Position numbers and translations under genes: made by a program | Origin: Pseudomonadota bacterium | Lineage (GTDB): Bacteria > Desulfobacterota > Desulfobulbia > Desulfobulbales > SURF-16 | NCBI GenBank assembly: GCA_018897105.1 | Contig: JAHILF010000118.1 | Location: forward strand, 1 to 52,943 | Direction: 5' to 3' | DNA: 52,943 nucleotides | Part shown: in pieces, positions 43,332 to 52,638 of the stretch | Layout of the letters: each line of letters begins with the position of its first letter | Numbering within the stretch: the stretch's first letter is position 1 | Notes under the pieces: model-generated | Seen by the model: only the letters and a program-made list of their open reading frames with translations | Told to the model about the DNA's origin: nothing | The model's database searches: none

Positions 43332-44477
43332 TCAGTCCTGCGCATTGATGCCGGCGGCTGAAATGCCTTTGATCACATACTCCTCGCTGTTGATGAAGTT
43401 GGCAAAAATAATCAGGAAGGTGACTGCCACGAGTCCCATCAGTCTTTTGTCATGGTAGAGGTCATCCAGGCCTTTTCTTTTCATCTCCTTATTTTCATAA
43501 ACGAAATGTCTGCGGAAAAGGCCGTCAAGCACGGACGGGCCTTTGTCCCTGATGCTGTCGCAGCCGCCGCTATGGGAATACTCCATGGCTTCGAGCAGCA
43601 GGGCGCGTTGATCGGCGGGAGACGTCAGGTGGTAGGCGAAGATATGCAGCATGATGGTCTGGGCCTCCCTGATGCTTGCCACGGCCAGGGAATAAAAAAG
43701 TTTCTGCGCCGCATCTCCCAGGGGAAGCTTCTCCGCCCGCAGCATGGATAAAAAAACTACATTTTTGTAGAGCTGGAAAAGCCGCCTGGCGCCGTTGATT
43801 CTGCTGGCAGAGGGATGGGACTGGCTGAGATGCAGCCCTTTGTAGGAATTGACAAACAGGATATCAAAGATGACCTGAAAGCAGCGGGCGCGGTCAGTGA
43901 AATCCTGCAGGTCTATGCGGAGATCCAGCGTATTGTCCAGGCGGTCCGCAAGCTTGATGACCGCAAGTTCAGGGGTTATCCTCGCCTGGGTGAGCAGACG
44001 GCCGAGATATTCCGTGTACTTCTGGCCCTTTGGTTTGGTGAGAAAGGCGATACGTTCATTGAGAAACCAGTTGGCCTGGGAGTCGATCTTCTCCAAGAGC
44101 TGGCGGTATCTGTTATCAAGCCTGCGCCAGGTGTCGGGGCTATATCTGCCCGGGGTCAGATCCTCTTCCTTGTCGTGCAGCAGGGCGGTGAGCAGATCCA
44201 GGGTGCTGGGTCGGTCATGGGCTCTGGCCAGCAGGGCGGAGGCCCGGATGGGATGGAGGATGGCAAGGGGGCCCAACCAGCGTTTCTGGTTGCCGTAGGC
44301 TTCGCCGAGATATTCCAGGGCCTCCATGAGAAACCCTTGGGAGACCTTGTCCAGCACCAGATGATTTCCCTCCACCAGGTTCAGTATCCCCTGCCAGTTG
44401 ACCGGTTCACCGGCCAGCTGATAGTTGAGGAAGGATGAAAGGGAAAGAAACTCCTGGGTGTCGATGAGCGGCTTCAT
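43332..44477 (-). CDS. Membrane-anchored HD-domain protein resembling the SpoT hydrolase domain
   Basis: This 381-residue protein carries the blocks of RelA/SpoT-type HD hydrolases: HPIRAS (His 75), LLTALLHDKEED (His 101, Asp 102, Glu 105, Asp 106) and AVIKLADRLDNTLDLR (175-187). These would bind Mn and hydrolyse a nucleotide such as (p)ppGpp. No synthetase, TGS or ACT domain follows; instead there is a helical region and one membrane segment near the C terminus (about 350-368, LMGLVAVTFLIIFANF). It may therefore be a small alarmone hydrolase tied to the membrane. The gene is convergent with the protease gene. Confidence 0.75.
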   Translation of the reverse strand: MKPLIDTQEFLSLSSFLNYQLAGEPVNWQGILNLVEGNHLVLDKVSQGFLMEALEYLGEAYGNQKRWLGPLAILHPIRASALLARAHDRPSTLDLLTALLHDKEEDLTPGRYSPDTWRRLDNRYRQLLEKIDSQANWFLNERIAFLTKPKGQKYTEYLGRLLTQARITPELAVIKLADRLDNTLDLRIDLQDFTDRARCFQVIFDILFVNSYKGLHLSQSHPSASRINGARRLFQLYKNVVFLSMLRAEKLPLGDAAQKLFYSLAVASIREAQTIMLHIFAYHLTSPADQRALLLEAMEYSHSGGCDSIRDKGPSVLDGLFRRHFVYENKEMKRKGLDDLYHDKRLMGLVAVTFLIIFANFINSEEYVIKGISAAGINAQD

Positions 44478-44748: not shown

Positions 44749-47553
44749 TCAGGCACGCTGTTTGCTATCCAGCGCCTGGCGCATTGCCTTGGCCATATCT
44801 CTTTTCATCACGGGTTTCATGAGAAATTCCCTGATGCCCTGGGCCTTGGCCTGCTCTTCATTGACCAGCTCACTGAAGCCGGTGCACATGATAATGGGGA
44901 TATCCGGTCTGATCGCCAGAATCTCGCTGGTTAATTCCAGTCCGGTCAGGCGGGGCATGGTCATGTCGGTGATGATGAGATCGAAATCATGTGGCCTGGC
45001 CTTGAAGGTTTCCAGGGCCTTCACGCTGTCCATCAGGGCTGTGACCGCATAGCCGAGATCGGTCAGCATCAGCTCCTCCATCCGCGTTATGACCTCTTCA
45101 TCATCCACCAGCAGAACCCTTTCATTGCCCGTCGGCAGGGATTCCGTTGCCTGCACCACCGGAGCCCCGGCCTGCAGGAGACGAGGCAGGTATACATGAA
45201 AAGTTGTCCCCTTGCCGAGTTCACTGGCTACCGTGATATGGCCGTCATGGCTTTTGACAATATTATGTACCACGGAAAGTCCCAGTCCGGTGCCCTCACC
45301 CTCTTTTTTGGTGGTGAAGTAAGGTTCGAATATCCGTTCCAGAGTCATAAGATCCATACCATGGCCGGTGTCGCTTATTTCCAGATGCACATATGGGCCG
45401 GGGACAAGTTCCGGCGAAATATCTTTGCTATCCTCCTGCCTGATATCAATCGGCGTCAGTCCGATCGCCAGCACTCCTCCTGTGGCACGCATGGCGTGGT
45501 AGGAGTTGGTGCAGAGGTTCATAACAATTTGGTGGATCTGGCTGGGATCGGCCAGCACCTGGCAACAGTCCGGGGCGATGTCGGTGCGGATTTCAATGGT
45601 GGTGGGGATACTGGCCCGTAAAAGTTTCAGGGCCTCCTTGACAATCAGGTGAATCTGGACAGGCTGGCGGTCCTGTTCCCTCTGCCGGCTGAAGGCAAGA
45701 ATCTGAGTGACCAGGTCTTTGGCCCGGTTGCCGGCACTCAGCACTGCGTTCAGATAGGCAAAAACATGACTTTCCTGCGGAGTTTCATTTTTGATCATAT
45801 CCGCATAGCCGAGAATAGGGGTGAGGATGTTGTTGAAATCATGGGCAATGCCGCTGGCCAGGGTGCCGATGGCCTCCATTTTCTGGGAGTGCTGGAGCTG
45901 GGTCAAAAGATTGGTATTCTCCATCTCGGCAAAAACCTGTTCGGTTACGTCATCAATACGGATGACCGCTCCAGAGACTGCCTCACCGATGAGCGGATAG
46001 ACGACGATATCGGCATAGTGGGGCTTGCCATCCTGCAGGTCAAAAACCCTTGTCGGATTTTTCGGCTGCCGTTTGGCCAGGGCTTGGCGGATATTTTCCT
46101 TTTGTCCCGCCAGTTGGGGTAATACCTCGCTCAGCAGGCAGCCCAGTGCCGCAGATGAGGAGATGCCGGTCTGTTTTTCCGCCTCACGGTTCCATTGGAT
46201 GACCTTGCCGTCCTGATCGACACCGACCAGAATCGAAGGCATGGAATTGATGATGCTGCTGAGCATGGCGCGCAGCCGCAGCATCTCCTCTTCGTGTTTT
46301 CGGCGGTCACGGATCATCCGGTTGGCCGATTCGGCCAGATTTCTGAATTCCCGGATGTTAAGGCTTTTCCGGTCAATCTCACTGTAGCCGGAAGCAGCAC
46401 CCTGAAAAAACGCGGTGAATGCCTGAAATTCCTTGTTAAGTCTGCCGGCAAGGTAGTGGGACAGGAAAATGACAAAGACGACAAAGCCGACCAGGAGGAC
46501 GAGGCCCTTGATAATGTAGCTGTTTACCTGCTGCTTCAGTAGTCTCTTTTTTTGCTGGAGAGCGCCACGGATGTCATCGGTATTGACATCAATGGCAACA
46601 ATCCACTGCCAGTCCGGATAAGAACGGGCATAGGCGATCTTCGGCGCCATCTCCAGGGTGGCGGCATCCTCCCAGGCAGAGGAGACAAAGCCCCCCTCGG
46701 CATTCAGCGCCACATGGAGGAGTTGCCGATAAATCTCCATTCCCTTGTCGTCGGTATAGGAAAACATGTTGCGGCCGATGTTTTCCTTTCTGGAATGGAA
46801 GAGGGCGATTCCATCTTCGCGAAAGAGAGCGATGGTGCCGATATTCTGCTGCATGCTGTACAGGTAATCCAGGATATTCTTCTGCACATCGCGGGTCATG
46901 TCGTCCTTATAGGCAGCCGTGCCGATATACCAGCCGAACGGTTCGAAATACTTGATAAAGGCCAGCTTGGTCCGGTTCTGCGCTGTATCTTGGGGGTCGG
47001 GGACCAGATACTGGTAAAAGGCCTCCTCATGGGCGGACACCATGGCCACCATGCTCCGCACCTTGGCTGCGCTGGAGCTGTCGGTCACATTGGTCAGCTT
47101 CCGGCCGGCCAGCTCCGGGCGGGCGGCAATAATCTCTTCTCCGCCATCGCCGGTTGTGGCGAAATAATAGCCCTGACCGTTGTCAAAACGGCTGGCCCGC
47201 AAGGTGGCTATAATGAGCTGTTTGATCTCAGGAACAGGCAGTTTCTCCTGATTTTTCTGATAGGTGTGCAGGGCGGTGGTATAGGCCTGCAGAACCCGTT
47301 CACGCAGGGTGTCCCGGATTTCTTTTTCTCTCTGCTTTCTCTGGAAGTCGATGAGCTGGATAATTTTTCCCACCTCATTGCGTAGCATCCATTGCCGGTC
47401 CCGGAGATACTCATCTTCATAACTGCTGGAGTCCAAGGCGGAATGGCGGTATGTTTCGTAAAGCCAGCCACCGCTCAGGCAGATGGTGAAAACGAAAATA
47501 ATCACCAGAAAGCTGAGAAAGGTTATTTTTTGGATGCTCGATTTACGAAACAT
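44749..47553 (-). CDS. Hybrid sensor histidine kinase with double Cache, PAS and receiver domains
   Basis: This 934-residue kinase has an N-terminal helix (10-30), a periplasmic double-Cache sensor region (about 45-340; GQGYYFATT and FGWYIGTAAYKDD in the first half, IALFREDGIALFHS and WQWIVAIDV in the second), a second helix (347-366), a PAS domain (430-540), HisKA with His 571 (GIAHDFNN), an ATPase domain (N box NLCTNSYHAMRA, DTGHGM, GEGTGLGLSVVH) and a C-terminal receiver with Asp 863 (ITDMTMPRL). No output regulator is adjacent. It follows two solute-binding protein genes by 37 bases on the same strand, so these may present ligand to its sensor. AAGGA precedes the ATG. Confidence 0.92.
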   Translation of the reverse strand: MFRKSSIQKITFLSFLVIIFVFTICLSGGWLYETYRHSALDSSSYEDEYLRDRQWMLRNEVGKIIQLIDFQRKQREKEIRDTLRERVLQAYTTALHTYQKNQEKLPVPEIKQLIIATLRASRFDNGQGYYFATTGDGGEEIIAARPELAGRKLTNVTDSSSAAKVRSMVAMVSAHEEAFYQYLVPDPQDTAQNRTKLAFIKYFEPFGWYIGTAAYKDDMTRDVQKNILDYLYSMQQNIGTIALFREDGIALFHSRKENIGRNMFSYTDDKGMEIYRQLLHVALNAEGGFVSSAWEDAATLEMAPKIAYARSYPDWQWIVAIDVNTDDIRGALQQKKRLLKQQVNSYIIKGLVLLVGFVVFVIFLSHYLAGRLNKEFQAFTAFFQGAASGYSEIDRKSLNIREFRNLAESANRMIRDRRKHEEEMLRLRAMLSSIINSMPSILVGVDQDGKVIQWNREAEKQTGISSSAALGCLLSEVLPQLAGQKENIRQALAKRQPKNPTRVFDLQDGKPHYADIVVYPLIGEAVSGAVIRIDDVTEQVFAEMENTNLLTQLQHSQKMEAIGTLASGIAHDFNNILTPILGYADMIKNETPQESHVFAYLNAVLSAGNRAKDLVTQILAFSRQREQDRQPVQIHLIVKEALKLLRASIPTTIEIRTDIAPDCCQVLADPSQIHQIVMNLCTNSYHAMRATGGVLAIGLTPIDIRQEDSKDISPELVPGPYVHLEISDTGHGMDLMTLERIFEPYFTTKKEGEGTGLGLSVVHNIVKSHDGHITVASELGKGTTFHVYLPRLLQAGAPVVQATESLPTGNERVLLVDDEEVITRMEELMLTDLGYAVTALMDSVKALETFKARPHDFDLIITDMTMPRLTGLELTSEILAIRPDIPIIMCTGFSELVNEEQAKAQGIREFLMKPVMKRDMAKAMRQALDSKQRA

Positions 47554-47590
47554 AAGTCCTTGATTGCTTGCCCTGGTCTGTTAATGTCCA

Positions 47591-48934
47591 TCAGCTGCGG
47601 TACATGCGGGCCAGCCTTTTTTCCGCCGCCAGCATGGCGGCTTTGGGCGTTTTGCCACCGGTGCAGACAGCGGCGAACATATCCACAATGACGAATTCAC
47701 TCATGGCGGCGGCCGATGCCGCCCCCAAAGGACCCGCATAGCCGTTCCACAGCATGCGCCCCGTACATTCCCGGTAAGGGGTGATGCGCGGGTCCTTGTG
47801 CCAGGCAGCCATATCATAATATGATTTCAGGGTCGGGGTGACAAAACCCCAGGTCCCGCTTTCCCATGCTCCGTAACTCGGTTCCTCGAACAGGAACTGC
47901 AGATAATGTTTTGCGGCATTGGGAATCGGGGTATGTTTAAAGATAAAGCCCAGACTGAACAGGGAGAGTTCGCTGGGAAAGCCCACCGGACCCACCGGAA
48001 AATTCATGGTCATCAGGTCCCTGTTGATATCCGGGAAATTCTGCATGGAGGCATAAAAGATGCTGTTGCCGTTGGCAGTCAGCGAGATTTGCCCGGCCAG
48101 AAAGGCATGGTTGTTGTGGGGATCAAGCCAGTTTTCCACCCCGGGGATCATGGTGTCATAAAGCTCTCTCGCCGTCTCCAGGGCCTGCATGGTTTCGCTG
48201 CTGTTGATGGCAATGGTTCTGCCGTCCGCCTCAATTGCCTTGCCGCCGAAAGACCATAACCACCAATGGGTCCAGGAGTTGGCGTCGCCCACGGCATGGC
48301 CCAGGGCGAAGCCGGTGGGATGGCCCTGGGATTTGAGCGCCTTGCAGCATCTGAGAAATCCCGCGACATCCTCGGGCACTTTGTCAAAGCCGGCCTCCTG
48401 TACCTGGCTTACCCGGTAGTTCAGACAGATGCCGGCGCTGCCCAGGGGCAGGGCGATCCACTGTTTGTTTTTGGCATCCCTGCCATAGACCTCGCATACC
48501 GGATACCAGCCGCCGTATTTTTTGCCGAGATAGTCCGCCACATCGCTGACATCAAGCAGCCGGTCCGGGTAGAGGTGGGGGTCGTCGAACCAGCCGAAGA
48601 CAATATCATGGCCCGAACCCAGCAGCGATTCCATAGCGGCAGTGGAACGGACATCTCCCCATTGGAGGAAATCCGTGATCACCCTGCCGCCGGTGGCGAT
48701 CTCCCATTTTTTCGTATTGATCCGCCAGATTTCCTCATCGCTCTTGACAAATCCCATCCAGCGCAAAACCTTGAGCACCGGTCGCGGTTCAAGCTCAAAG
48801 CGTGGGGCCGGGATTTCCGCCGCCAGGGCCGGGTTGAACTGGAATAGAGCAGGCATGGCCCCGCAGGCCAGCCCGATGGCCGATGTCCTGAGAAAATCCC
48901 GGCGGGAAAGCCAATGTTTCATTTCATCGCACAT
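47591..48934 (-). CDS. Tat-exported solute-binding protein (first of two paralogues)
   Basis: This 447-residue protein starts with a twin-arginine signal (SRRDFLRTSAIGLACGA) and has the shape of a family 1 extracellular solute-binding protein (sugar-type): LKVLRWMGFVKSDEEIW, HDIVFGWFDDPHLYPDRLLDVSD, WIALPLGSAGICLNYR, GHPTGFALGHAVGDANSWTHWW and a final SEFVIVDMFAAVCTGGKTP. The ligand is unknown. GGAG lies six bases before the ATG at 48934. It is 27 bases from its paralogue and 37 from the kinase gene; no ABC permease or ATPase is near. Confidence 0.88.
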   Translation of the reverse strand: MCDEMKHWLSRRDFLRTSAIGLACGAMPALFQFNPALAAEIPAPRFELEPRPVLKVLRWMGFVKSDEEIWRINTKKWEIATGGRVITDFLQWGDVRSTAAMESLLGSGHDIVFGWFDDPHLYPDRLLDVSDVADYLGKKYGGWYPVCEVYGRDAKNKQWIALPLGSAGICLNYRVSQVQEAGFDKVPEDVAGFLRCCKALKSQGHPTGFALGHAVGDANSWTHWWLWSFGGKAIEADGRTIAINSSETMQALETARELYDTMIPGVENWLDPHNNHAFLAGQISLTANGNSIFYASMQNFPDINRDLMTMNFPVGPVGFPSELSLFSLGFIFKHTPIPNAAKHYLQFLFEEPSYGAWESGTWGFVTPTLKSYYDMAAWHKDPRITPYRECTGRMLWNGYAGPLGAASAAAMSEFVIVDMFAAVCTGGKTPKAAMLAAEKRLARMYRS

Positions 48935-48961
48935 CAGCTGCTCCCTATTTCCGGATTGCGG

Positions 48962-50317
48962 CTATACATACAGCCGACTGAGCCTTTTTTCGGCCCGCAG
49001 GGCAGCGGTCCGGGGTGTCTTGTTGCCGGTGCAGACATCAGAGATCATGTCAACGATGACGAATTCACTCATGGCGGCGGCCGATGCCGTGCCAAGAGGG
49101 CCGGCATGACCATTGGAGCGCATGCGTTTGATGCATTCCCGATAGGGAGTTATTTTCGGATTCTGCACCCAGCCGGGCGTATCATGAAATTTTTTGAGGC
49201 TCTGGCAGATATACCCCGATGAACCGCTGATCCAGCTGCCATACTGCTCTTCCTCAAACATGAACCTGAGATAGTGTCTGGCCGCGTTGGGCATGGGGGT
49301 GTGTCTGAAAATAAAGGCCTGGCTCAGGGCGGAGAGTTCGGCCGGTCTGCCCACCGGACCGATGGGGAAATTGATGACAGCCAGATCGGCGTCAATGTCC
49401 GGATTTTTTCCCTGGGCGGCATAGGCTATGCTGCTGCCGTTGTTGGTGACCGAAATATTGCCGGCCAGAAATTCCCTGTTGTTGTGGGGATCAAGCCAGG
49501 TATCCACACCGGTGATCATGGTAGCAAAGAGTTCGCGGGCCGTCTCCAGGGCCAGCAAGGTTTCCTGGTTGTTGATGGCGATGGTCCGGCCATCGGCTTC
49601 AACCGCCTTGCCGCCGAAGGACCACAGCCACCAGTGACACCAGGCATTGGCGTCCGCCACGGCGTGGCCCAGGGCAAAGCCGGTGGGGTGCCCTTTGGCC
49701 TTGAGCGCCTTGCAGCACCTGAGAAAGCCGTTGATGTCGGTGGGCATGGTCTCAAACCCTGCATCACGGACCCATCTCTGGCGGTAATTGATGCACTGGC
49801 CGGAACAACCCACGGGCAGGGCGATCCACTGATTGGTGCGTGAAGAGCGACCGTAGGTTTCACATACCGGATACCAGCCCCCGTATTTACTGCCCAGGTA
49901 TTCGGCCAGATCGGTCAGTTCCAGGAGCTTGTCCGGATAGAGATGAGGGTCGTCAAACCAGCCGACAACGATATCGTGACCGGTGCCGAGAGTTGCCTCC
50001 ATGGCGGCATTGGGCCGCACGTCATTGAAGGGGACGATGTCGGTAATGACCCGGCCTCCCGTCAATTTTTCCCAGCGCCGCGTGTTCGCCAGCCAGATAT
50101 CCTCGTCACTTTTCAGAAAGCCCCCCCAGCGGAGCACCTTGATCAGCGGCTTCTGTTCAATGGTGATCAGCGGTGCAGCAGTATCAGCCGCGGCAGCTGT
50201 GGACTCGCTTAAGGGTAAGTCGGGGACATACGCTGCAACCGCTAGTCCGGTCAGGGTGACTGCGGTATTCTGCAGAAAGCGGCGGCGCGACAGGCCGACT
50301 GTGTCATCTTTTCCCAT
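48962..50317 (-). CDS. Tat-exported solute-binding protein (second paralogue)
   Basis: This 451-residue protein with a twin-arginine signal (SRRRFLQNTAVTLTG) is a close paralogue of its downstream neighbour throughout its length, for example GHDIVVGWFDDPHLYPDKLL, KYGGWYPVCE and SEFVIVDMISDVCTGNKTP. ATG at 50317 is chosen because GAGGAG is eight bases upstream; a GTG two codons earlier abuts it. It heads the three-gene unit that ends with the hybrid kinase. Export by Tat in place of Sec suggests folding, perhaps with a cofactor or quick folding, in the cytoplasm. Confidence 0.88.
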   Translation of the reverse strand: MGKDDTVGLSRRRFLQNTAVTLTGLAVAAYVPDLPLSESTAAAADTAAPLITIEQKPLIKVLRWGGFLKSDEDIWLANTRRWEKLTGGRVITDIVPFNDVRPNAAMEATLGTGHDIVVGWFDDPHLYPDKLLELTDLAEYLGSKYGGWYPVCETYGRSSRTNQWIALPVGCSGQCINYRQRWVRDAGFETMPTDINGFLRCCKALKAKGHPTGFALGHAVADANAWCHWWLWSFGGKAVEADGRTIAINNQETLLALETARELFATMITGVDTWLDPHNNREFLAGNISVTNNGSSIAYAAQGKNPDIDADLAVINFPIGPVGRPAELSALSQAFIFRHTPMPNAARHYLRFMFEEEQYGSWISGSSGYICQSLKKFHDTPGWVQNPKITPYRECIKRMRSNGHAGPLGTASAAAMSEFVIVDMISDVCTGNKTPRTAALRAEKRLSRLYV

Positions 50318-51201
50318 CTTCACGTCTCCTCACCGGTTTTCCCGGAGGCAAAAAAGAGGATATGGGTTGCCGGTATCCTGCCGAATGCTGGCGCGATTAG
50401 CGCTACGGACAGGATTGCCCATGATATTTCCCGTCCCGTGTGTAGAAAAATGTGGCATTGGGTTCCTGCTCATCGGTCTTGCCCCAGATGAGCAAAGCCT
50501 TGCAGGAACAGTTTTTCGAGTCGTTTTCTTTTTGTCCCCTGCAGAGAGGGAAAATGGAATGTGTTGCGCATGAAACTTTTAGTGTCCCTGTTGATGATGC
50601 CATTATTTTCGTCTTGCGGCGAAAAAAAAGTTTGAAATACTGTCATATTACGACACTGCAAACTGAATGCTCATACCAAAACAGATCTAAAAAAAAGTCC
50701 AACTGGTCGGGATGGTAAAATGCCGGAAGTGTGTTTATATCGGCCAGGTTGCTTTGGAGCATGAGAGCGGCACTGAGGCGAGAAAAGATGTGGATGATCA
50801 TGTCCATCGTCCCCGTGGCAGCCGGCACAAAAAACTGTCATAATTGAGCGGTGGAGTTATCAGCTCAAGGATTATCAGCCCGGAATTTTCTTTAAATCTA
50901 GTTGGTTCCGTGATAGACATCCCTGGGAGCGGGGAGATTTGTCCAGTCAATATCGTTCCCGCTGATGTCGCAAAGTCAATTCATAGGGGCATGGTATATG
51001 TTCAGATGATATCGTTCATTTGTCAAATGCAAAGATGATAAATAGTATTTTTTATCTGTCGGGGGAAGGGCGAATCTCAAGTCTAGCAAGGGGCTTGGGC
51101 ATAAATCGACCATGGCGGAAAGACTTTCACTGGAGGTTTGGGAGACGGCAGCAGAGGCGATTGCCTGCCGTAAGGTGCGGTAGTTCAGCGGATACTGCCC
51201 T
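50318..51201. other. Gene-poor region
   Basis: About 880 bases hold no gene I can support. Several short frames exist; the most gene-like is on the minus strand at 50403-50603, ending KNCSCKALLIWGKTDEQEP and so on with three cysteines, but its start is not preceded by a ribosome site and I know no relative. The stretch is rather A/T-rich around 50600-51060. The promoter of the binding-protein/kinase unit should be near 50330-50450. Confidence 0.4.
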
Positions 51202-52638
51202 TTACTTTCCGGCCAGCCAGGCCGTCAGGGTGGGCGGTGAGGCGATATATCTGGCCACCGGTTTCAACTGGCATTGAGCACTCACCTCAACGCCTTCCTT
51301 GATGATGGAAACCGGCCGGTCGGACGATACCACGACCACGATGATATCGCTGTGTTCCGAGCTGAACCGCAGGGCCGAGTTGTAACGCGCCCCTCGGGAG
51401 CGATCTTCCCCTGGCACGGTACGGCCGTCCAGCAGACAGGCAAAGGAGTGCAGATGCATATCCGTGCCGATGTGCAGGGCGCCGTCAACTTTGGCCAGGG
51501 ATTTGGCCAGTTCCAGGATTGAGGGCTGGCGCAGGTCCAGGGGGTGTTCCAGGCGCTGGCCGGAAATCTCGATGGGCCGGGGATTGAGGTCAAGTACCAG
51601 GGTGCAGCCGTGTTTTTCGGTTTCTGCGCTGTGGACCAGGGCGGCGATGATTTGAAACAGGTGATGGGTGCAGGTCAGTTCCAAAGAGGTTTCCAGCAGC
51701 AGCTCCTCCAGTTGCACCAGTTTGGCTTTGTGGGTGGTGGAATGGAAGCTGCCGTTGAAAAAACTGCACACTGGCTTGTCGTTTAAGCTGAGAAAGCCGT
51801 AGCCTCGGCGAAAGTCGGCGATGATATGGAAAGCAGGCAGGTCGGCGGTGGTAATGCCGACGATATGCTGGCCGTTGGAAACCAGGCGGCGGTCGGAATT
51901 TTCCACGGCCTGCAGAATCTTGCGCACATGCTTGAAATTACTGAGCTGGGGCCGGCCTTCGTGGGGAAACTGAACCATGAAGTCCATTTGCTTGACTGCA
52001 TGTGGTTCGACAAAAACCAGTTCACCCTTGGGCCAGGCCCCTTCTTCCCTGGTTTCGGAGATACCCAGCACGGCATCGAGAATGGGGTAGATGCGGATGT
52101 AGGTATCCCAGCCGAGGAAAACATTCATTTCATCCACCATGAAATCACGTACGGCATGGGTGCCATAGCCGCGCAGCACATAGCCGGTTGTGCGGGTATA
52201 GAGATCACTGTCCGTGCCCAGGTCATGGGCCAGCAGCCAGGCCGCATGTTCCAGCCAGCATTCGGTGGGCCCGATGGAGCACATGTCCGGATGGTGCTCG
52301 GTGAACCATATCTGGTAAAAGATGATATTGGAACGGGCTCCGTAGGAAATAAGGCCGGCCAGATCAAGATTTTTTACCGGATGAAACTGTTTGAAGCCGT
52401 CAATTCTAGAGGGATTGGCCGGGCCGGAGCGCCAATCGTCCGAGTCCAGAAAGAGCTCTTTCAGTTTGGGCTCATGTCCCTGCAGCAGGTTCTGTGGATC
52501 GACAACATGGATGGGGTCCGCCGCACCTATGGCATAGAGCAGGGCGACCCGGCTGGGACCCGAAAAACGGGAAAGGCCGTCCTGCACCCCGTCAAGGGCG
52601 TTGAAGATGCACTGATGTATGAACGCTTTATCCTGCAT
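51202..52638 (-). CDS. DisA_N (diadenylate cyclase) domain protein with altered RHR motif
   Basis: This 478-residue protein has an unassigned N-terminal part (about 1-330) and a C-terminal DAC/DisA_N domain. The DGA motif is at 385-387 (KVDGALHIGTDMHLHSFACLLDG). The second catalytic block reads SRGARYNSALRFSSEHSDII (414-433), with Tyr-Asn (419-420) where cyclases have His-Arg in GxRHRAA. The final strands VVVVSSDRPVSIIKEG match the family. It may make cyclic di-AMP, bind it, or have changed chemistry. The N-terminal part is not the DNA-binding part of DisA. No strong ribosome site precedes ATG 52638. Confidence 0.78.
   Translation of the reverse strand: MQDKAFIHQCIFNALDGVQDGLSRFSGPSRVALLYAIGAADPIHVVDPQNLLQGHEPKLKELFLDSDDWRSGPANPSRIDGFKQFHPVKNLDLAGLISYGARSNIIFYQIWFTEHHPDMCSIGPTECWLEHAAWLLAHDLGTDSDLYTRTTGYVLRGYGTHAVRDFMVDEMNVFLGWDTYIRIYPILDAVLGISETREEGAWPKGELVFVEPHAVKQMDFMVQFPHEGRPQLSNFKHVRKILQAVENSDRRLVSNGQHIVGITTADLPAFHIIADFRRGYGFLSLNDKPVCSFFNGSFHSTTHKAKLVQLEELLLETSLELTCTHHLFQIIAALVHSAETEKHGCTLVLDLNPRPIEISGQRLEHPLDLRQPSILELAKSLAKVDGALHIGTDMHLHSFACLLDGRTVPGEDRSRGARYNSALRFSSEHSDIIVVVVSSDRPVSIIKEGVEVSAQCQLKPVARYIASPPTLTAWLAGK

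Follow-up and report, generated by a model that had tools for sequence, protein, structure and literature searches.

Two solute-binding protein genes and a hybrid kinase gene in tandem

The window analyzed here, a stretch of 52,943 nucleotides from contig JAHILF010000118.1 (assembly GCA_018897105.1; GTDB order Desulfobulbales, SURF-16), carries on its minus strand three consecutive genes, which encode two solute-binding proteins (SBPs), denoted as SBPa and SBPb, and a hybrid histidine kinase. SBPa is encoded at positions 48962..50317 from an ATG codon, with an upstream GTG as an alternative start that would extend the gene to 50323, and SBPb (447 residues) is encoded at 47591..48934. Both proteins match the Pfam families SBP_bac_8 and SBP_bac_1 and carry the motif SRRxFL (SRRRFL in SBPa and SRRDFL in SBPb), a twin-arginine pair preceding a hydrophobic stretch, as expected of substrates of twin-arginine translocation (Tat). 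The kinase (44749..47553, 934 residues) comprises dCache_2 (1.1e-63), PAS, HisKA, and HATPase_c domains, and the receiver required in such a system is supplied by a Response_reg domain fused at its C-terminus. The H-box of the kinase reads SGIAHDFNNIL. The genes are separated by 27 bp (SBPa–SBPb) and 37 bp (SBPb–kinase), which leaves little space for promoters, and the open reading frames (ORFs), strands, lengths, and gaps all agree with the tandem described in the initial annotation. A promoter scan returned seven sites in the region against 4.3 ± 2.4 expected by chance, and one promoter-like site falls within SBPb. The predicted model of SBPb (mean pLDDT of 87.7) adopts a MalE-type fold, with the maltose-binding protein MalE3 as its best solved match, while that of the kinase sensor part (mean pLDDT of 81.6) shows two mixed α/β modules with long helices on both sides.

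Matches to the SBP family were found in 4 of the 97 genomes searched (the window's own genome and its relatives), with a pair in each. The carriers are the own genome, in which SBPa and SBPb are the only members of the family, G002 and G004 from the same genus, and G090 from another family; the latter three all contain an orthologue of SBPa.

An SBP gene located beside the gene of a kinase with an extracytoplasmic domain is the arrangement of an SBP-coupled two-component sensor. Among the characterized SBP–kinase pairs, 10 of 11 are gene neighbors, and SBP_bac_8 is one of the families for which receptor activation is known (PMC11113362; this and the other PMC papers are cited from excerpts). 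The initial annotation proposed that the binding proteins act as periplasmic co-sensors that present ligand to the kinase. The present sequence comparisons favor this reading with a probability of roughly 0.7, according to which SBPa and SBPb would be the ligand-loaded co-sensors of the kinase in a three-gene sensing cassette. It is backed by the missing cognate permeases, the descent of the SBPs from importer proteins, the altered positions in the Cache domain, and the behavior of the cassette as a separable unit.

Importer ancestry of the binding proteins and absence of the cognate importer

Family members were collected by a scan of a genome collection and a search of 395 genomes of the phylum, which, after duplicates were merged, gave 24 distinct SBP-family loci outside the cassette. 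At all 23 informative loci fetched, the SBP gene adjoins genes for MalF- and MalG-type permeases, usually together with one for a MalK-type ATPase; this count includes L184, a distant paralogue (33%), and L013, where BPD_transp_1 and MalK-type domains were confirmed by Pfam. The remaining locus, L183, is uninformative, as its contig ends inside the SBP gene. The kinase sensor part has no match at any of the non-cassette SBP loci fetched. The phylogenetic tree resolves SBPa (100/99) and SBPb (100/98) as sisters, which jointly form one clade (100/98) among the importer SBPs and group with family f27 (100/100). This position shows that importer proteins were recruited and duplicated. The two paralogues are 62% identical, and each paralogue clade contains a protein from G090, indicating that the duplication predates that split or that both copies moved with the cassette. 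The duplication, initially described as recent, is therefore old.

Tat export had likewise been regarded as unusual for this class of binding protein. With the twin-arginine model TIGR01409 (cut-off of 16.7), SBPb scores 18.9 bits and SBPa scores 16.4 bits, just under the cut-off. The arginine pair is invariant in the rows covering it, which are at least 22 of the 26 family rows, importer SBPs included, and Tat signals are thus usual in this family. Tat export as a mark of sensing was ruled out, since the importer relatives possess the same signals; it is inherited from the importer state and uninformative on sensing.

A dedicated permease encoded elsewhere in the genome would speak against the co-sensor reading. 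Profiles of MalF and MalG were run on the four cassette genomes and on two control genomes, of which G097 supplied one row of each profile and G098 supplied none. In the controls, the profiles match the cognate permeases at 1.5e-159 or lower, with MalG scoring over 500 bits. In contrast, the MalF profile at a threshold of 0.01 has no match in the three cassette genomes of the same genus and only two fragments of ~17 bits in G090, and MalG does not exceed 26 bits in any of the four. The cognate permease pair is absent from the four cassette drafts by this profile search, and an earlier single-protein search for MalF, which also gave no match but lacked a positive control, is superseded by it. 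The query with the cognate ATPase retrieves proteins of at most 40% identity in the cassette genomes, compared with 80% in the independent control and 100% in the genome of origin. Among the components of a CUT1-type ATP-binding cassette (ABC) importer, the SBP is present, as judged from ancestry and fold, and the cognate permeases and ATPase were not found. Judged by the four draft genomes, the SBPs lack a cognate transporter, as in the AioX type, and the co-sensor reading withstands the refuting condition that the initial annotation had set for permeases.

These results bear on the possibility that the SBPs still transport their ligand through an unlinked or non-cognate permease while the kinase uses them too, in the manner of GltB in Pseudomonas aeruginosa. 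SBPs shared between systems are known. Moreover, the four cassette genomes are drafts (93–100% complete) with other permease types present, which counts against the co-sensor reading as well. PF00528 matches number 10 in the own genome, and in all but one case, the neighboring translations suggest peptide, phosphate, or molybdate systems. Weighed against the permease scores above and the change of an importer-conserved helix in the cassette SBPs described below, shared transport appears quite improbable.

The cassette SBPs retain a conserved core, with 71 columns invariant in all 26 family rows, themselves included. In 18 of the 153 importer-conserved columns, every SBPa or every SBPb sequence departs from the conserved residue. 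The changes cluster at residues 84–105 (SBPb numbering), where 7 of 12 importer-conserved columns are changed in the cassette SBPs (permutation p = 0.003), and a cluster at this site arises in 1.4% of permutations for SBPa alone and 1.9% for SBPb alone. In the control clade f27, 1 of 13 columns is changed in the same segment. Residues 92–105 of SBPb (48620..48661, minus strand) form a helix in the predicted model.

Altered positions in the double-Cache domain

The dCache_2 part of the kinase spans residues 44–328 (46570..47424, minus strand). Its module 1 matches the solved structures of PscD and Adeh_3718, and its module 2 matches the Vibrio sensor 2qhk. The PscD pocket is formed by Tyr90, Trp92, His103, Tyr143, Trp145, and Lys156 (PMC5062169) and belongs to a carboxylate-binding Cache domain. 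It was mapped through an alignment with Adeh_3718, which is reported to have the same pocket, in place of an alignment with 5g4y. The counterparts are Y129, F131, I142, Y182, V184, and K196 in module 1 and T240, A242, H253, S292, W294, and K305 in module 2. Module 1 lacks the Trp (V184) and the His (I142), the latter being mostly missing from the relatives too, and module 2 lacks both aromatics at 240 and 242 as well as the Tyr at 292.

These residues were compared in alignment A4, for which seven of the first 40 kinase loci (L126, L131, L135, L137, L138, L140, and L142) were set aside and 33 were used. All four cassette kinases deviate at 21 columns that are conserved at 70% or more among these 33. 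From these, six positions were selected, namely the pocket-mapped W184, Y240, F242, and Y292 and the glycines G320 and G322, which are 91–100% conserved in the 33 kinases and changed in every cassette kinase. Relative to its unlinked relatives, the window kinase carries Val for Trp at 184, Thr for Tyr at 240, Ala for Phe at 242, Ser for Tyr at 292, Ala for Gly at 320, and Asp for Gly at 322. The Cache pocket is thus altered, chiefly in module 2, and the domain may have given up direct binding. Since this first comparison favors such a reading, its conserved columns having been defined from unlinked rows, a wider test of the six positions was conducted, in which all seven loci left out of A4 were included.

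Association of the altered positions with binding protein genes

The wider test comprised 122 further kinase sequences, three of them from cassettes, with the window kinase counted separately. Its 120 kinase loci were taken from among the matches listed, roughly best first and with at most four candidates scored per genome, and do not constitute a random sample; L228 was dropped because it has no kinase ORF. SBP-linked loci number 3 among the first 40 and 41 among the 120 obtained with 80 more. In 38 of the linked kinases, a Peripla_BP_6-type gene was recognized directly upstream by ORF choice, and tblastn added three loci (L202, L256, and L257), where the SBP gene is hidden by a longer antisense ORF and the kinase has three changes each. 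The Peripla_BP_6 assignment is confirmed by Pfam in four of the 41 linked loci and by similarity in the others, and two of the 41 (L130 and L141) had already been looked at before the wider test. Unlinked status refers to the upstream side only, where the 40 same-strand ORFs of these loci were judged by reading their translations, and three of the 40 also by Pfam; for 5 of the 78 unlinked kinases, less than 900 bp of upstream sequence was available, so that an SBP gene could still lie there.

At least three of the six positions are changed in all 41 Peripla_BP_6-linked kinases and in all four cassette kinases, compared with 3 of the 78 unlinked kinases, 68 of which have none of the six changed. 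Ten control positions show no split between linked and unlinked kinases. In a quick tree, the linked kinases fall into two separate clades, representing two independent events. Four unlinked clades have stems of similar length (0.70–0.86, compared with 0.80 and 0.81 in the linked clades), and none of their members shows more than one change, which makes it hard to explain the changes by divergence alone.

The Peripla_BP_6-linked dCache_2 kinases constitute a clade within this bacterial order that accounts for 41 of the 119 non-cassette kinases examined, including L130, L131, L141, and L199. In L130, L131, and L141, the three looked at, a response regulator gene lies directly downstream of the linked kinase gene. 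L238 also falls within this clade and has four of the six positions changed, and no adjacent SBP gene was found there.

Several observations weigh against the co-sensor reading. The cluster at SBP residues 84–105 yields p = 0.096 (9 of 17 columns changed) when the phylum's other importer SBPs serve as the reference and p = 0.157 (12 of 21) when f27 alone does, and the f27 control has a cluster of its own elsewhere (p = 0.022). That helix 92–105 faces the permease in importers is an inference. The six Cache positions were chosen after looking, out of 21 changed columns, and at the position of Y292 the profile alignment places a Phe in the Vibrio sensor 2qhk itself. The unlinked kinases L200 and L217, located outside the linked clade, show three changes each, and the coincidence of SBP linkage with changed positions has just two independent origins in the quick tree. 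The cassette kinases keep Y129, F131, Y182, and K196 in module 1 and H253, W294, and K305 in module 2. Direct binding of some ligand by the Cache domain is therefore possible, and the retention of H253 and W294 in module 2 slightly lowers our confidence in the sensor reading and in its more far-reaching version described below. Finally, AgtS and AruS, whose genes lie next to SBP_bac_8 SBP genes, gave no SBP binding (PMC11113362).

The retained residues and the AgtS and AruS cases would equally suit an arrangement in which the kinase binds a small ligand of its own through a remodeled Cache pocket and the SBPs act separately, as scavengers or under the control of the kinase, for a new specificity would change pocket residues too. 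However, SBPs without a transporter would have nothing to deliver to, and another kinase clade, separate from that of the cassette, shows the same coincidence of SBP linkage and changes at these positions. We consider this arrangement unlikely, though it is the strongest of the competing explanations.

Distribution of the cassette and its flanking genes

The gene-neighborhood search for SBP–SBP–kinase units that the initial annotation had suggested recovered such units in three genomes besides the own one, including one from another family. The order SBPa–SBPb–kinase is identical in all four genomes, which is more than expected by chance. The second gap is 141 bp in G002 and thus not always short. 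The H-box and receiver motifs were found in the kinases of the window, G002, and G004, and the motif search missed the G090 kinase.

In the window, the cassette is flanked by a gene for a DACND–DACNH–DAC protein (51202–52638) and by an HD-like gene (43332–44477), whose HD match lies under the Pfam cut-off; both are on the minus strand. Neither is a transporter gene according to Pfam, in line with the earlier statement that no permease or ATPase is adjacent. Three of the six genomes of the genus (the own genome, G002, and G004) have the cassette, in each case located between the DAC and HD genes, which adjoin each other at a distance of ~160 bp in G003 (L194 1446–4183), a genome without the cassette. 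In G005 and G001, which also lack it, the HD gene was found and no DAC gene occurs within the stretch fetched. Neither gene was found near the cassette in G090, where an M48-type gene lies downstream (34% to the M48 of the window), so that the flanks retain some relation to those in the window. The cassette behaves as a single unit of three genes, and the pattern within the genus fits gain or loss of the cassette.

This distribution also bears on whether the SBPs might be co-receptors for another periplasmic receptor, such as a chemoreceptor, with the kinase being either a further client or uninvolved. SBPs stimulate chemoreceptors in addition to kinases (PMC6321045). The kinase gene, however, accompanies the SBP pair in all four genomes in which the pair was found, and the cassette contains no chemoreceptor gene, which makes a role of this kind very improbable.

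The interval between the DAC gene and SBPa (50318..51201, minus strand) is a long stretch without a called gene, in which short blocks are kept in G002 and G004, and it presumably contains the promoter region. Read by eye, these conserved blocks have a spacing that is unlike that of a sigma-54-like site.

A proposed model for ligand sensing by the cassette

The co-sensor reading can be formulated as follows. The SBPs descend from the binding protein of a CUT1-type ABC importer, the gene of which was duplicated, and the importer genes are absent. After export by Tat, SBPa and SBPb would capture a small solute in the periplasm, for which their relatives make a sugar or a sugar acid the likeliest candidate. 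The loaded SBP would then dock on the double-Cache domain and thereby alter the autophosphorylation of the kinase. The Cache domain, changed at nearly fixed positions, may no longer bind ligand directly. Ligand binding by the SBPs and docking on the kinase are suggested by the missing importer, the conserved SBP cores, the changed helix, and the partnership with a kinase whose Cache domain is altered. From the kinase, the phosphate would pass to its own receiver and presumably via an HPt protein to an unlinked output. Such a phosphorelay is possible, given that the own genome holds 15 Hpt matches, two of them in short frames (128 and 149 residues).

With respect to the ligand, an importer member of the SBP family from an alpha relative, on Sinorhizobium meliloti pSymB (L056, 46.7% identical, the one examined of 220 matching plasmid records), lies beside genes annotated as denD, ltnD, and otnK. 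The SBP locus of one relative within the phylum lies beside OtnK- and PdxA-like genes. DenD has no match at the five other alpha loci, and the nearest relatives, family f27, have none of the DenD-, OtnK-, or PdxA-type context genes. The L056 context points to four-carbon sugar acids as ligands for that branch; extending this to the cassette would be a guess.

A more far-reaching version of the model holds that the Tat-exported pair of former importer SBPs is the sole input of the kinase, that the Cache domain serves only for docking and relay, and that the same swap, in which an SBP was gained and the Cache pocket altered, took place at least twice in this kinase family with unrelated SBP folds. 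This version is tentative, with odds somewhat below even. If it were true, the six Cache residues would reveal SBP-driven orphan kinases of this family from sequence alone. Most sensor kinases have no known input, and those driven by SBPs are difficult to recognize; the tie between Cache changes and SBP genes, seen in two kinase clades, would provide a cheap means of picking kinases to be screened for ligands together with their SBPs instead of as bare sensor domains. The locus further illustrates cleanly how an importer SBP probably evolved into a sensor, since the importer state persists in relatives, and it has two SBPs associated with one kinase.

Comparison with known SBP-dependent sensors

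In the LuxP–LuxQ, TorT–TorS, and XylFII–LytS systems, XylFII being the binding protein partner of LytS, the loaded SBP docks on the periplasmic domain of the kinase. These systems differ from the cassette in their SBP folds and sensor-domain types, and each has one SBP partner. The structures of LytS, TorS, and LuxQ with binding proteins are named in PMC6321045. Searches of the open-licence PMC literature found neither a dCache kinase accompanied by two CUT1-type SBPs in the absence of an importer nor any link between altered Cache pockets and neighboring SBP genes.

In the AatJ–AauS–AauR system of Pseudomonas syringae, an importer SBP is required for kinase-driven regulation, and transport is genetically separable (PMC7386598). 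AatJ is an amino-acid SBP whose importer genes remain, and the authors, in the excerpt, leave direct binding by AauS possible. The GltB–GtrS–GltR system of Pseudomonas aeruginosa, which responds to glucose, is nearest in SBP class: the sugar-importer SBP binds the kinase, and its glucose-binding residues are needed for activation (PMC7927077). GltB, however, retains the importer GltFGK, whereas no cognate importer was found for the cassette. Nearest in kind is AioX–AioS–AioR, together with ArxXSR and ArrXSR, which sense arsenic oxyanions and likewise employ an SBP of an ABC transporter family for signaling, encoded beside the kinase gene (PMC5908839). AioX is a single, PhnD-related protein that works with a separate response regulator, whereas the cassette encodes two SBPs of CUT1 type that carry Tat signals, and its receiver is part of the kinase itself. 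The cassette is thus distinguished by two Tat-exported SBPs of an importer family, a dCache_2 hybrid kinase, and an importer state that is still visible in its relatives.

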